The translations under genes and the position numbers were made by a program. A stretch of DNA of 64,000 bases. Origin: an uncultured Clostridia bacterium. GTDB lineage: Bacteria; Bacillota; Clostridia; Oscillospirales; Oscillospiraceae. Below the pieces are notes generated by a model, which had not been told where the DNA came from, searched no databases, and saw only the letters and a list, made by a program, of their open reading frames with translations. The stretch is from positions 1-64,000 of the forward strand of contig CAMUZA010000004.1 in assembly GCA_947165085.1 (NCBI GenBank). The letters are read 5' to 3'. Shown one piece after another: positions 97-21,074 of the stretch; the first letter of the stretch is position 1; every line of letters starts with the position of its first letter.

Positions 97-186
97 ATTA
101 TAGCACATTTGTTTAATTTGTCAATATGGATTAAAACAATTTTGTTTAATTTCCCTATTGACTTTAACGTATTTGTTTAGTATGAT
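97..186. promoter_or_regulatory. Divergent promoter pair with three TTTGTTTA(A/G)T operator-like repeats
   Basis: Minus strand TTGACA (119-124) N16 TATAAT (97-102); plus strand TTGACT (158-163) N17 TATGAT (181-186); repeats at 107-117, 140-150, 171-181. Confidence 0.7.
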
Positions 187-382: not shown

Positions 383-731
383 GCCGCACGCCATAAGCGT
401 GCGGCAAAACTACTGCCTGACGCCGCCTGCGTCGGGCAAATCTTTTTGAAGATCTCTCCCGTGACGCGCTCAAGTTTTTTCGTCCCGACGTCTCTCGCCC
501 GGACGAAGGAAGCTGCGCTTCCGAGGGAGGATTGCCGAAAGACCACAGTGCGGTCTTTCGGCAACGGGCGGCAAACAAATTTGCTGCCCGCGCCGGGGAA
601 ACGGAGCAGATTGTGCTTCGTTTCTTCGGCGTAGGCTGCCGCAGCAGCCGCATCCGCCTCGCAGAGCCCACGGTACTTTGCAGCCGAAGGATGAAAGTAC
701 CATAGTGGGTTAATACACTTTCGCAAAAGTG
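383..731. other. Array of about ten consecutive hairpins upstream of the relaxase
   Basis: Examples: GCCGCACGC-cataa-GCGTGCGGC 383-405; TGCCGAAAGACC-acagtgc-GGTCTTTCGGCA 533-563; CGGGCGGCAAA-caaa-TTTGCTGCCCG 565-590 (one G.T); GGTACTTT/AAAGTACC 672-701. Confidence 0.7.
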
Positions 732-774: not shown

Positions 775-927
775 ATGGCCCGCAACGACGGAGCCAATCA
801 CACGTTCGTACGAAACCGCGATCTCAAGGCGGATAAAAAGCCACGCCCCAGAGCGCGTACGCTCACAACGAACGCAGAAAAGAGTCGTATTCCAATCCGG
901 ATATCGTTCCCGAACGGACGCCAATGA
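775..927 (+). pseudogene. Relaxase N-terminal reading frame (MARNDGANHTFVRNRDLKADKKP...) separated from the main ORF by a frameshift
   Basis: Strong RBS aaggaggtgat before ATG 775; relaxase-like sequence continues in another frame as AHNERRKESYSNPDIVPERTPMNVHFK. Confidence 0.65.
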
Positions 928-2132
928 ACGTGCATTTCAAATCGCCGGACGGCACGTATGAGGAAACTTTCTCCGCGCTGGAAGATCAAAGAGTGATTTC
1001 AACGTGGGGACTCAAACCCGGCTCGACGAAGATGTGCGAATTGATCTTCGACGTCAACTCCGCATACTTTTTCAACCACGGCGGGTATGAGTTTGCGAAA
1101 CAATTCTACGCCGACGCCTATCAGGCCGCGATCGAAATCGTCGGCGGCGAGCAGTATATCCTCTCGGCCGTGATGCACGCCGACGAGCGCAACCGAGCAA
1201 TGTCCGACGCGCTGGGGCAAGACGTCTTTCACTATCATATGCACGTCGTCTACGTGCCGGTGGTGGAGAAGAAAAAGCTCTGGTCGAAGCGCTGCAAGGA
1301 CCCGGCTTTGGTCGGCACCGTGAAGGAGATCATCCCGCAGGTCAGCCGTTCAAAGAAGTGGGAATCGAAACCGGCGTTGGATAAGAACGGCGAGCCGCTG
1401 CTGAACAAAGATGGCAAGCCCGTCCTGCATCATTCGTATTCCGTTTTGCAGGATGCGTTCTACGATCACATGGCAGCCGCCGGCTATGCCGATGTCGAAC
1501 GCGGCGAGCGCAGCAGCAGTGAAGAACATCTGACCGTGACGCAATTCAAGGTCGACAAAGAGGAACGCCGTCTTGAAATGATCCACGAAAAGATCAGAGA
1601 GGAAACGTCCGAGTTCTCTCAAGTGCGGAAAGAGAAGTACGCCGTCGAGAAAGAGATCGAGCAGAAGCAGAAGCGTCTGGATCAGCTGACGCCGCAGGTC
1701 GAGGACGCAGAGAGATTCGTCACCGAGCATCTCGGCAGGCCGGAAGACCTGATTCCCAAAACGACCACGATGGAATACGCAAGCCACTACCGCGAGAAGA
1801 AAGCCAAGCCGATCATCCAAAAGCTGTGGAAAGTCGCGCTGTCGCTCTGGCACACGGTGCAGGAACTGCGCACCAAGGCCAAAGACTGGCAGAAGAAGTT
1901 TGAGGCCGCCGCCCGTGACCGCGACATTCTGAAACGGCGTTGGGAGACCGCGCACGCAGAAAACGAAGAAATGAAATCCGAGCTGCGGGAATATGCGCTG
2001 GTGAAACGCGAACTCGGGCCGGTCGTGATGGAGGACATGCTGCAGACCGTCAAAGAGCGAGAAGCCGCCGAGGCCGCCGTCAGCCGTCAAGACCACCGCA
2101 ACCGCCATTACCGTGCAGAACAACAAAGATAA
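924..2132 (+). CDS. MobA/Mob-Pre type plasmid mobilization relaxase, main ORF (true start likely 775 if the frame is restored)
   Basis: NVHFKSPDGTYEETF, HNHGGYEFAKQFYADAY, HADERNRAMSDALGQDVFHYHMHVVYVPVVEK motifs with coiled-coil C-terminus. Confidence 0.85.
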   Translation: MNVHFKSPDGTYEETFSALEDQRVISTWGLKPGSTKMCELIFDVNSAYFFNHGGYEFAKQFYADAYQAAIEIVGGEQYILSAVMHADERNRAMSDALGQDVFHYHMHVVYVPVVEKKKLWSKRCKDPALVGTVKEIIPQVSRSKKWESKPALDKNGEPLLNKDGKPVLHHSYSVLQDAFYDHMAAAGYADVERGERSSSEEHLTVTQFKVDKEERRLEMIHEKIREETSEFSQVRKEKYAVEKEIEQKQKRLDQLTPQVEDAERFVTEHLGRPEDLIPKTTTMEYASHYREKKAKPIIQKLWKVALSLWHTVQELRTKAKDWQKKFEAAARDRDILKRRWETAHAENEEMKSELREYALVKRELGPVVMEDMLQTVKEREAAEAAVSRQDHRNRHYRAEQQR

Positions 2133-2240
2133 TGCAGATGTGCCTTCCATAGACACGATGCCTTGAATCTGTGCAAGGGCATGATGAAAGAATGCCGCAC
2201 ACTTGTACAGATTCCCCCATTATCAAAGGAGGTACTCTAT

Positions 2241-2471
2241 GTGTTTAACCAATTCCCGGACATCATGTCCATAAAAGATTTGCAAGGTGCGCTCGGCATC
2301 GGACGCACCAAAGCATACGAATTGATCCATACCGGAGAGATCCGGTCGATCCGCATCGGAAAAGCAATCCGAATTCCGAAGAAAGCCCTACTTGATTATG
2401 TCAATGGCTTCGTTTATAATCAAAACAGAAACGGTGTGGGCAGCTGCCTGAAAGAAAAGGAGGTTTCATGA
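2241..2471 (+). CDS. Excisionase-family HTH DNA-binding protein (GTG start preferred)
   Basis: MSIKDLQGALGIGRTKAYELIHTGEIRSIRIGKAIRIPKKALLDYV; RBS aaaggaggt upstream; same layout as 19398-19625. Confidence 0.8.
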   Translation: MFNQFPDIMSIKDLQGALGIGRTKAYELIHTGEIRSIRIGKAIRIPKKALLDYVNGFVYNQNRNGVGSCLKEKEVS

Positions 2472-3628
2472 ATATTACAGGCAGCCTACAAATCCGAAAC
2501 GGCACTTACTATATGATGCTCCGCGTCCCGAGGGGCGACGGCACCTATACGCAGAAAGCCAAAACCACAAAAATCAAAGCGCAGGGCAAGAATGAGCGCG
2601 AGACGCGCCGCAACAAGCTGGAAGCAGAGAAAATGCTGGCGCAATGGAGCGACGATCTGGAACAAAACGTCGGTCTTGCCAATCACAGACCGCTGATCGC
2701 GGCGCTGGACGAATGGCTGGAACGGAGAAAGCGCAGTATTCGGCAGAATACCTATGAATCCTACTTGTGCGAATACAACTACCATATCAAGCCGTACTTC
2801 GCGCCGAAAAAGCTGCGGCTGTGCGACGTGACGCCGCGAATCATCCAGCGCTACGTAGATGACAAAGAAACGTCCGGACTATCGCCCAACAGCGTGAAAA
2901 AGCACCTCGTTATTCTGAACGGCGTGTTCAACGACGCGATCAAGCTGGGCGATATGACGTTCAATCCCTGCGCGAGGATCACGCCTTCCCGCCGCGAGAA
3001 GTTTGTCGGCAAAGCGTACACCGCCGAGGAGGCGCGGCAGCTATTGGCCGCGGTCAAAGGCGAGTCCCTCGAGCCGGCCGTCTATCTGGCGCTGTATCTC
3101 GGTCTCAGGCGCTCGGAAGTCGCGGGCCTGCGCTGGATGGATGTGGATATGGAGAACGATCAGGTGCATATCCGCAATACGATCGTGCGCTTCTACACGG
3201 TGACGGAGCATGAAAAAACAAAGAGCAGAGCGAGCAAACGCGATCTCTATCTTCCCGCAGGTTTGAAAACGTACCTGCAGGAGCTGCGAAAGAAGCAGGA
3301 AGAAAACCATGCATTTCTGGATCTGGCGTTTTCAGAAGAATCCCACGTGTGTCAATGGGAGGACGGTCGGGCGTTTCAGCCGGAGTATATCAGCACCCGC
3401 TTCCGGGAAGTGCTGCAAAAGCGCGGACTGCCGAAGATCCGATTCCACGATCTGCGGCATACCGCGGGCAGTCTTCTGATCAATCAGGGGCAGTCGGCAA
3501 AACAGGTGCAGGAATTCCTCGGGCACGAGAACGTAGCGACCACGCTCGACATCTACACGCATTTGACGATGGATCGGAAAAAGGACACCGCAGACGCGAT
3601 CGATTCCCTGCTTTCTGACGCAAGTTAG
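2468..3628 (+). CDS. Tyrosine recombinase / integrase of element A
   Basis: LRRSEVAGLRW, HDLRHTAGSLL and LGHENVATTLDIYTHL catalytic boxes; overlaps xis stop by 4 nt. Confidence 0.95.
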   Translation: MNITGSLQIRNGTYYMMLRVPRGDGTYTQKAKTTKIKAQGKNERETRRNKLEAEKMLAQWSDDLEQNVGLANHRPLIAALDEWLERRKRSIRQNTYESYLCEYNYHIKPYFAPKKLRLCDVTPRIIQRYVDDKETSGLSPNSVKKHLVILNGVFNDAIKLGDMTFNPCARITPSRREKFVGKAYTAEEARQLLAAVKGESLEPAVYLALYLGLRRSEVAGLRWMDVDMENDQVHIRNTIVRFYTVTEHEKTKSRASKRDLYLPAGLKTYLQELRKKQEENHAFLDLAFSEESHVCQWEDGRAFQPEYISTRFREVLQKRGLPKIRFHDLRHTAGSLLINQGQSAKQVQEFLGHENVATTLDIYTHLTMDRKKDTADAIDSLLSDAS

Positions 3629-18276: not shown

Positions 18277-18783
18277 TTATTCTGCGTAATTATCGATGGT
18301 GCTGATTCCTTCGGACGGGATCTTCGCTCGGATTGTGTCCTGGTCGTAGGTCGGGTAATATCTGCGCCAGCGGTCGTAGTCGGCTTGGGTGATCTCCCCT
18401 GCTGCGAGTTTCGCGGATTGGTTCTGCCAAGCGGAAAGCAGTTCAAACATTGCCGGATAGCGCGGCGAACGCTTATCCAGACGGATGCAGAGTTCGCCGT
18501 CGATCTCGCCGATCTTGAGCGCAGATGTGTCCTCCAACGTGAACAGCGTATGCATCAGACCGATTTCCGTATCAATATCCGGCACGGTGAGCGCGTGGAC
18601 GGAGACGTCAAGTTCTCTTGCAAGCGCCGAAACGATCTCCGTCTTCGGCGTTCTGATGCCGCTTTCGTACTGTGCGATTCGGACGTCAGCGGTGTTTTCC
18701 GTGAAACCGACCGCATTGCCTAATTGCTTTTGCGTCATTCCCCGCAGCAGGCGGAAATAGTGAATTCGTTCGCCGATCGCCAT
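18277..18783 (-). CDS. XRE-family HTH transcriptional regulator
   Basis: MAIGERIHYFRLLRGMTQKQLGNAVGFTENTADVRIAQYESGIRTPKTE. Confidence 0.9.
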   Translation of the reverse strand: MAIGERIHYFRLLRGMTQKQLGNAVGFTENTADVRIAQYESGIRTPKTEIVSALARELDVSVHALTVPDIDTEIGLMHTLFTLEDTSALKIGEIDGELCIRLDKRSPRYPAMFELLSAWQNQSAKLAAGEITQADYDRWRRYYPTYDQDTIRAKIPSEGISTIDNYAE

Positions 18784-19074
18784 AAAAAGACCTCCAAAGA
18801 ATAGTATCTGCATCAATTATAGCACATTTGTTTAATTTGTCAATATGGATTAAAACAATTTTGTTTAATTTCCCTATTGACTTTAACGTATTTGTTTAGT
18901 ATGATATAGTAGGAAACCAGATGCTTCAGACAATACAACTGGAGGTGATAGCCAACCCCAAACAACTGAATAATCCGACCGATACAAGGAGGTATAGCTG
19001 GCGACGATGGCTCGCAAGAGCCGGAGCGGTGGAGACGCTGGAGTTTCAAAGCTCGGGCAGGAGCCGGATCGGAC
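18720..19074. repeat. Perfect 355-bp direct repeat, copy 2
   Basis: Identical to 1-355. Confidence 0.95.
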
Positions 19075-19103
19075 GACGGCGAACAAAACACCAAATTCAT
19101 GCT

Positions 19104-19250
19104 AGACTTCGCTCAAATGCTCTGGAAAGCATTCGATAGCGCCAAGGGCGCGTCGAAGTCTGCACGAGACGGCTTTTCAGCGTGTTACGCTGAAAAGGCT
19201 GTGCGCAGCACAGCAAAATTCAATTATAGCTTCTAATTGAATTTTAGTAT
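19104..19250. other. Hairpin chain of element B, including a potential three-way junction
   Basis: AGACTTCG/CGAAGTCT (19104-19111/19154-19161) enclosing AATGCT-ctggaa-AGCATT and GCGCC-aag-GGCGC; CTTTTCAGCG-tgtta-CGCTGAAAAG; GCTGTGC-gca-GCACAGC; AAAATTCAATTA-tagcttc-TAATTGAATTTT. Confidence 0.65.
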
Positions 19251-19397
19251 CAGATGTACCTGCAAAAACAGGGACGATTCTTATCCGCACACGCATACCC
19301 AGGGTATCCCTTTGCCTAAAATCAGAAGCGCAATCGCGTGCGGCGACGCCGCACACGTGTACGGATCAATAATCATTTCCTTCAGGAGGTACCCAAA

Positions 19398-19625
19398 GTG
19401 TTCAACCACTTACCGGACATTATGTCCATCAAAGAATTAAGAAGTGCGCTCGGCATTGGTCGGACCAAAGCCTATGAGCTGATCAGCAGCGGAGAGATCA
19501 AATCCATCCGCATCGGAAATGCGATCCGTATTCCGAAGAAAACCCTACTTGATTATGTCAATAGGAAGCTCTATAATGAAGATGAAGCAGGTAAGCGCCC
19601 AAGCTGCGAAGGAGGTATGCAATGA
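19398..19625 (+). CDS. Excisionase-family HTH DNA-binding protein of element B (GTG start)
   Basis: MSIKELRSALGIGRTKAYELISSGEIKSIRIGNAIRIPKKTLLDYV; RBS aggaggt. Confidence 0.8.
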   Translation: MFNHLPDIMSIKELRSALGIGRTKAYELISSGEIKSIRIGNAIRIPKKTLLDYVNRKLYNEDEAGKRPSCEGGMQ

Positions 19626-20779
19626 GAGTAACGGGTAGCTTACAGGAAAAGAACGGCGTCTATCAGATGGTCGTTCGCGTGCCGGATCTATACGGCGCAA
19701 ACAAGCAGAAATCAAAATCCACGAAAATCAAAGTCAAAGGAAAGAACCAACGCGAAACCACCGCAAACAAGCGCAAGGCAGAGCTGATGCTGGCGGAATG
19801 GATGGACGAGCTTTCCCGTTCGGAGTGTTTCGGCTCCGACAGGGACCTGATCGCCGCGATCGAGGACTGGCTCAAGCAGAAGAAAAAGGCCGTCCGTGAG
19901 GACACCTTTGAATCCTACTCCAATATGTACCGAAATCATATCAAGCCGTTTTTCGCGCCGAAGAAACTGCGGCTGGGAGATGTGACGCCGCGGATCATTA
20001 TGACCTACGTCCGCGAAAAAGAGGACGCCGGTCAGTCCAGGCGAAGCATTCGGCATCACATGGTCATTCTGAACGGCGTCTTCTCGGAAGCGGTCATGAT
20101 GGGCGAACTGCTCTACAATCCATGCACCAATATCAAGATCAAAGCCAAAAACGGCGAGCGTTTCGTCGGTACGGCGTATGACGTGCCAACGGCAAAGAAG
20201 CTGCTGGACGCAGTCAAGGACGATCCCATCGAGCCGGCGGTCCAGTTGGCGCTGTATCTCGGATTACGCCGCTCCGAAGCGTGCGGTTTGCGCTGGAAGG
20301 ACGTGGATATGGAGAGCGGACTCGTCCATATCCGCAACACGATCGTCTGCTTCTCCGAAGTCAGAGAAAAGGAACAGACCAAGACGCATGCCAGCCGCCG
20401 CGATCTGTATCTGCCGAACGCGCTCAAGGCCTATCTGCAGACGGTGTGGAAGAAGCAGGAGGCAGATCGTGATCTGACCGGACGGGAGTATTCCGAGGAC
20501 GAGCACATCTGTCAATGGCCGGACGGCAGCATTCTCCTGCCGGACTACGTCAGCCGCCGCTTTGCGAAGATCCTGAAGAAAAACAAACTGCCGAAGATCC
20601 GTTTTCACGATCTGCGGCATACGGCGGGCAGTTTGCTGGTGAACAGCGGTCATACAATCAAGCAGGTGCAGGAATTCCTCGGTCACGAAAACGCTTCGAC
20701 GACGCTGGATATTTACACGCACATTTCGTCGGACAACAAAAAAGATACCGCGCTGGCGATGGATAAATTGCTGGCGTAA
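19622..20779 (+). CDS. Tyrosine recombinase / integrase of element B
   Basis: LRRSEACGLRW, HDLRHTAGSLL, LGHENASTTLDIYTH; diverged homolog of 2468-3628. Confidence 0.95.
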   Translation: MRVTGSLQEKNGVYQMVVRVPDLYGANKQKSKSTKIKVKGKNQRETTANKRKAELMLAEWMDELSRSECFGSDRDLIAAIEDWLKQKKKAVREDTFESYSNMYRNHIKPFFAPKKLRLGDVTPRIIMTYVREKEDAGQSRRSIRHHMVILNGVFSEAVMMGELLYNPCTNIKIKAKNGERFVGTAYDVPTAKKLLDAVKDDPIEPAVQLALYLGLRRSEACGLRWKDVDMESGLVHIRNTIVCFSEVREKEQTKTHASRRDLYLPNALKAYLQTVWKKQEADRDLTGREYSEDEHICQWPDGSILLPDYVSRRFAKILKKNKLPKIRFHDLRHTAGSLLVNSGHTIKQVQEFLGHENASTTLDIYTHISSDNKKDTALAMDKLLA

Positions 20780-20865
20780 CGGGTCCACAAAAGAGAAAAA
20801 ACAAGACTTCTCGGAAACGAAAAAACCGGTTTTCCGGGAACTCCGAACTTTTCCATTGAAAAAGT

Positions 20866-20887
20866 TTGTTGGATGTTTTGTTAGATG
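20866..20887. promoter_or_regulatory. TTGTTGGATGTTTTGTTAGATG: candidate arm-type sites at right end of element B
   Basis: Matches motif at 4012-4032. Confidence 0.5.
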
Positions 20888-20949
20888 TTTCCGTTTCGGG
20901 CAGTTTTACTGGATTTTACCGGAAATAATTCTCCCGGTAAAAGTTAGAA

Positions 20950-20983
20950 AAAGTGCCAGAAATCGTCAGATTTCTGGCACTTT
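20950..20983 (-). terminator. Terminator of tRNA-Leu supplied by element B
   Basis: AAAGTGCCAGAAATC-gtca-GATTTCTGGCACTTT, followed on the minus strand by TTCTAACTTTT. Confidence 0.75.
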
Positions 20984-20986
20984 GGA

Positions 20987-21074
20987 TGGTGCGCGAGGCG
21001 GGACTTGAACCCGCACGTCCGGAGTGGACACTAGAACCTGAATCTAGCGAGTCTGCCAATTCCACCACTCGCGC
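20987..21074 (-). tRNA. tRNA-Leu (anticodon CAG)
   Basis: Reverse complement GCGCGAGTGGTGGAATTGGCAGACTCGCTAGATTCAGGTTCTAGTG...GGTTCAAGTCCCGCCTCGCGCACCA; encoded CCA. Confidence 0.95.

Follow-up and report, generated by a model that had tools for sequence, protein, structure and literature searches.

The window, a 64,000-nt stretch of a contig from an uncultured Clostridia bacterium, contains near its left edge a MOBV (Mob_Pre) relaxase gene (775..2132, + strand), followed on the same strand by genes for an excisionase-type HTH_17 protein (2163..2471) and a tyrosine integrase (2468..3628), all assigned by protein family. With the oriT described below, these genes point to a putative integrative mobilizable element (IME), the left end of which is missing because the contig starts inside a regulator gene that is duplicated at 18720. 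This truncation is probably an assembly break at the repeat. The duplicate belongs to a second integrative element (~18600-21000), whose regulator and leader are 99% identical over 180 nt to those of the first; a tRNA gene lies beside this second element at 20990-21074. Alignment reveals a 1-nt deletion in the relaxase gene of the first element, with five A at 835-839 where three relatives have six, putting the start at 775 out of frame with the main ORF. The relaxase frame is intact over this stretch in a sister copy of the element on another contig (C5), and either mutation or an assembly error could explain the break. Upstream of the relaxase gene, a consensus scan alone identifies a promoter-like site of the divergent switch (TTGACT-17-TATGAT, 158..186, + strand, 10/12 matches) that points toward a long array of hairpins.

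The sequence-only reading of this DNA had described about ten hairpins at 383-731, and folding shows that they are real. The RNA minimum free energy of the + strand at 370-740 is -192 kcal/mol, compared with -132.6 +/- 5.4 for shuffled sequences (z = -11.05). A stability no better than that of shuffled controls, which would have spoken against the array, is not what we observe, as 0/100 shuffles fold as stably. The - strand folds with z = -8.9, and DNA parameters give z = -10.5 (+) and -8.0 (-). Eight hairpins appear in the + strand minimum free energy fold as originally listed (383-405, 414-438, 533-563, 565-590, 591-631, 634-649, 672-701 and 716-731). The exception concerns 479-507 and 508-522, which had been taken for neighbours: in this fold, 508-522 competes with a longer hairpin at ~475-511, so that the two are alternatives within 475..522. 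The fold adds a small hairpin at ~440-454 and places 672-701 inside a longer hairpin (667-709) with a 3-nt ATA bulge.

The accompanying statement that the hairpins lack terminator T-runs applies to most of them and fails for the first two. The 10-bp hairpin at 414..438 is followed on the + strand by AATCTTTTTG, the 9-bp hairpin at 383..405 is followed, when read on the - strand, by TGATTTTTCA, and both score as terminator-like. These two hairpins are peripheral, since the C5 sister copy matches the window only from ~476 and shares the remainder. Because a T-rich tail is present at 414-438 only, we rejected the idea that the array as a whole acts as a terminator or attenuator. The members closer to the relaxase gene, all on the + strand, comprise a 13-bp hairpin at 531..564 (across 11 relatives, its helix is 97% paired and shows double changes), a hairpin of ~11 bp at 565..590 (94% paired in relatives), an 18-bp hairpin at 591..631 that we call H4 (compensatory change in 7 pairs) and a conserved hairpin at 634..649, H5, with a 6-bp stem and a CGCA tetraloop.

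H5 adjoins the last two hairpins, 667-731, which by their layout constitute a MOBV-type oriT. In this region an outer inverted repeat, IR3 (CCCAC...ATA bulge...GTGGG, 667..709), encloses an inner one, IR1 (672-679/694-701), in the order CCCACGGTACTTT...AAAGTACC-ATA-GTGGG|TTAATACACTTT, where the bar marks the putative nick (GTGGG/TTA, G709/T710) placed by homology to GTGTG/TT of pMV158. The final hairpin (716..731, + strand) lies 3' of the nick and carries a repeated ACTTT in its arm. The nesting of IR1 in IR3, the 3-nt ATA bulge in the right arm, the nick position at the 3' foot of IR3 (these features recur in an alignment of 14 loci), the ACTTT repeat across the nick and the location on the coding strand just upstream of a Mob_Pre relaxase gene are all shared with the pMV158/MOBV1 oriT (PMC5863519). 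The window differs from pMV158 in its IR3 stem, which is formed by GGTACTTT/AAAGTACC plus CCCAC/GTGGG, in the separate hairpin 3' of the nick and in the ~300 nt of additional hairpins upstream.

A covariance model built from 14 copies of this oriT matches 79/80 loci that were retrieved independently by relaxase protein similarity, and in 79/80 loci the Mob_Pre relaxase gene lies downstream on the same strand. Every match lies on the coding strand and precedes the relaxase gene by a short distance that hardly varies, and matches occur in 46/301 genomes of the family. The suggestion that the hairpins serve as an oriT is thus supported, by layout and by these matches at relaxase loci, for the last two hairpins, and the rest of the chain is a separate matter. 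The transferred strand of pMV158 is the coding strand, and by homology the + strand would be the transferred strand here.

The hairpins upstream of oriT are a chain that is conserved in gut Clostridia in shape and pairing, not in sequence. The chain accompanies oriT in 44 non-redundant relatives, among which sequences and hairpin number vary and pairing is kept. When 39 loci are aligned on the nick, folding z-scores are strong from about -350 to 0 and near zero downstream, and the 450 nt before the nick contain a median of 6 strong hairpins (44 loci). Hairpins recur in ordered slots: the oriT hairpin, the 6-bp CGCA-loop H5, a 41-46 nt hairpin in the H4 slot of most relatives, and then others. 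One relative (L086) retains little beyond H5 and oriT.

Covariation in related elements, which had been proposed as a check on the hairpins, bears them out. Among 37 distinct versions of H5, 66 cells are changed on both sides and 97.3% are paired, a figure inflated by the choice of these versions for pairing and a CGCA-like loop. The H5 covariation score is 0.808, against 0.219 +/- 0.028 for a shuffled control that ignores relatedness and at most 0.198 for a slid control that preserves it. An unselected census of the 44 loci recovers a full 6-bp stem with a 4-nt loop in 32, of which 29 have the CGCA loop, and encounters 17 different stems. Within the subfamily closest to the window (11 sequences), the array hairpins plus oriT have 95.8% of their cells paired and 19 doubly changed pairs versus 9.6 in shuffles, a control that ignores phylogeny.

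We asked which strand is under selection by finding hairpins with a strand-neutral score and then classifying their imperfect pairs. The chain contains 92 G.T and 44 A.C pairs on the + strand (p about 2e-5), where composition alone predicts slightly more A.C than G.T. Control DNA from far upstream contains 42 G.T and 45 A.C pairs. Because the excess of G.T is present in the chain and not in the control, the selected form is single-stranded and has the sequence of the + strand, which is the mob-coding strand and putatively the transferred one. The loop word CCGCAG is similarly oriented, occurring in 37/44 loci (5.8 expected) and as its reverse complement in 10. Selection on the + strand fits an mRNA and transferred single-stranded DNA equally, since both are the same strand. 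The wobble asymmetry argues against a double-stranded palindrome or cruciform as the sole function, and we rejected that reading.

The wobble bias also bears on the earlier suggestion of an accreted palindrome array, in which the hairpins would have no function or would be a by-product of DNA turnover near oriT. The outer hairpins do vary in number and identity, and two loci (L004, L009) have extra structured insertions between array and oriT. Against this, compensatory changes fall in ordered slots, wobbles are biased to one strand, and the chain persists across a wide G+C range that includes AT-rich relatives. The ordered slots, the compensatory changes and the wobble bias point to selection on pairing, and we regard accretion as highly improbable.

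Another reading holds that the array is a structured leader RNA, transcribed from the switch promoter at ~158-186, which controls mob expression or transcript stability by attenuation, antitermination or protection. The selected strand is the mob-sense strand, a T-rich tail follows 414-438, and the genes that flank the array in relatives point in the same direction. We judge this reading unlikely, with a real weight that it keeps because the consensus scan identified the promoter-like site upstream of the window's array and found none between the array and mob. Most of the hairpins, however, lack T-runs, and Rfam searches at gathering and relaxed thresholds returned nothing relevant for the chain, which corresponds to no described structured RNA family there.

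Further evidence against a leader RNA comes from elements that lack a relaxase. These elements of ~2.5 kb (L061-L064, L077) keep the array and oriT, although the only genes downstream of oriT are those for an HTH regulator and a large serine recombinase, with a promoter-like sequence of their own. Their common DNA begins 460-640 nt before the nick, and the array therefore starts at the left terminus of the element, a position that likewise disfavours a leader. Relaxase-less elements occur in genomes that also hold relaxase-bearing elements, and they are probably mobilised in trans. In one of them (L062), tandem variant repeats (GCAAGC...GGCTTG) that are themselves hairpins lie about 510 to 390 nt upstream of the nick, at the left end of the relaxase-less elements.

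The converse arrangement is provided by the second element in the window (18720), whose leader runs straight to the excisionase and integrase genes and which lacks array, oriT and mob together. As the array is kept without a relaxase and lost together with oriT and mob, it is coupled to oriT. The chain thus follows oriT and not the relaxase gene.

A further reading is that the chain is a structural extension of oriT, the hairpins being elements of the relaxosome or of strand closure that either bind an accessory protein or fold the transferred strand at its 3' end, without any priming. In its favour, almost every locus has the chain directly adjoining oriT, H5 resembles a recognised hairpin in combining an invariant CGCA loop with a freely varying stem, and a NikA-like accessory gene is present at one locus (L069). 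The target of pMV158 MobM, by contrast, is described as a short oriT with IR1-IR3 only (PMC5863519), and a chain of ~300 nt with variable upstream members exceeds what a protein site needs. We consider such an extension improbable.

The neighbourhood of the chain in larger relatives suggests a connection to replication. The gene just before the array is of primase/helicase type in 29/35 of these relatives, and the families found there are replication genes of unrelated kinds: DUF5906/D5 (16), AAA_25 (8), DUF3987 with an NrS-1 polymerase HBD (4) and a DnaG zinc ribbon (1). At many loci about 290-335 nt separate the stop codon of the upstream gene from the nick, a gap that the array fills entirely. 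For the element of the window itself, the sequence available shows no primase gene.

We tentatively favour a reading in which the chain is a single-strand initiation region, similar to an sso or ssi, that is coupled to oriT and may help the transferred strand to become double-stranded. This reading fits best with the single functional strand, the position at the end of the putative transferred strand, the coupling to oriT and not to mob, and the replication-gene neighbours. The oriT at 667-731 and the chain would together make up the cis-acting transfer region of the IME. By analogy to pMV158, the relaxase would nick at G709/T710 and the + strand would be exported 5' to 3', with mob first and the hairpin chain last. 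The chain would fold on unwinding of the + strand in the donor or on its entry into the recipient and, once the circle is nearly complete, would allow host RNA polymerase or primase, or the primase of larger relatives, to start the second strand.

A single-strand origin had been among the roles first suggested, and it is the best-supported option remaining for the chain. The putative transferred strand folds stably and strand-specifically, as expected of an sso, a behaviour that would suit an mRNA too. Known sso elements are described as one to a few stem-loops, and the chain differs from them in its five to ten near-perfect hairpins. DNA searches of plasmids found no similarity to a known sso class and matched the oriT part only, and phage and plasmid records likewise matched only oriT pieces. 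The ssoA-type hexamer TAGCG[TA] is not enriched, occurring in 1/44 loci versus 2.8 expected. With no known sso sequence identified, we do not file the chain in any sso class and propose only that it works alike.

To our knowledge, the conversion of the single strand of an IME to double-stranded DNA in the recipient has been worked out in only a few cases, such as ICEBs1. A comparison with characterised systems reveals both parallels and differences. Like ICEBs1 sso1 and the sso of rolling-circle plasmids, the chain folds as a single strand, is specific in orientation and is linked to a nick origin, though it has more hairpins, nearly perfect ones, no sequence similarity that we could find and a function that is putative (PMC4595007, PMC5703833). 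The sso of plasmids is usually upstream of the nick origin, as the chain is, and that of ICEBs1 is downstream of the relaxase gene (PMC4595007). IMESag-rpsI provides a close parallel, in that it too is an IME, one whose module (oriT-mobSag-ssoA) unites a MOBV relaxase, an oriT resembling that of pMV158 and a putative lagging-strand origin; this origin can be recognised as an ssoA and lies downstream of the relaxase gene, whereas the candidate in the window is an unrelated hairpin chain upstream of oriT (PMC5090054).

More speculatively, and with considerable doubt, the chain could represent a hitherto undescribed class of single-strand initiation region, common to mobilizable elements in gut Clostridia, in which ordered, freely evolving hairpins and a CGCA-loop hairpin stand by a MOBV oriT and are possibly read by adjoining primases of several unrelated lineages. 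A literature search conducted mostly without subscription journals found no description of such a hairpin chain. If the chain is an initiation site, this would account for a feature that many mobilizable elements of gut Clostridia have conserved; some of these elements carry tet(W), and a Tn4451-like relative carries aac(6')-aph(2''). The combination of oriT and array would also then be a signature by which relaxase-less elements that hitchhike on others could be recognised.

We further compared relaxase families. Strong upstream structure (z below -5) is present at 66% of 41 MOBV loci, drawn mainly from the class and phylum and including the window and three plasmid loci, versus 21% of 29 MOBP loci, a rough control because MOBP oriT positions were not located. 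The idea that hairpins are a general property of any relaxase neighbourhood is weakened by this difference. One locus (L166) has strong hairpins on the other side of its oriT-like motif, so the upstream layout is not universal in MOBV.

Another example of the layout is a Tn4451-like element (L188) on pD610-HI2, an IncHI2 plasmid of Klebsiella, in which an AT-rich hairpin chain particular to this element precedes oriT. Mobilizable transposons of the Tn4451/Tn6218 type (TnpZ) share the MOBV relaxase with the window; their hairpin sequences look unrelated, and they use a recombinase of another type where the window has a tyrosine integrase. In L188, a MOBV relaxase and aac(6')-aph(2'') occur together on an enterobacterial plasmid. 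At four other loci (L068-L070, L190), a tet(W)-type gene, annotated at L190 and judged from the first residues of the protein at L068-L070, lies directly 3' of array, oriT and mob. One of these (L070, G055:C11) contains three copies of the oriT module within about 10 kb, which suggests stacked elements.
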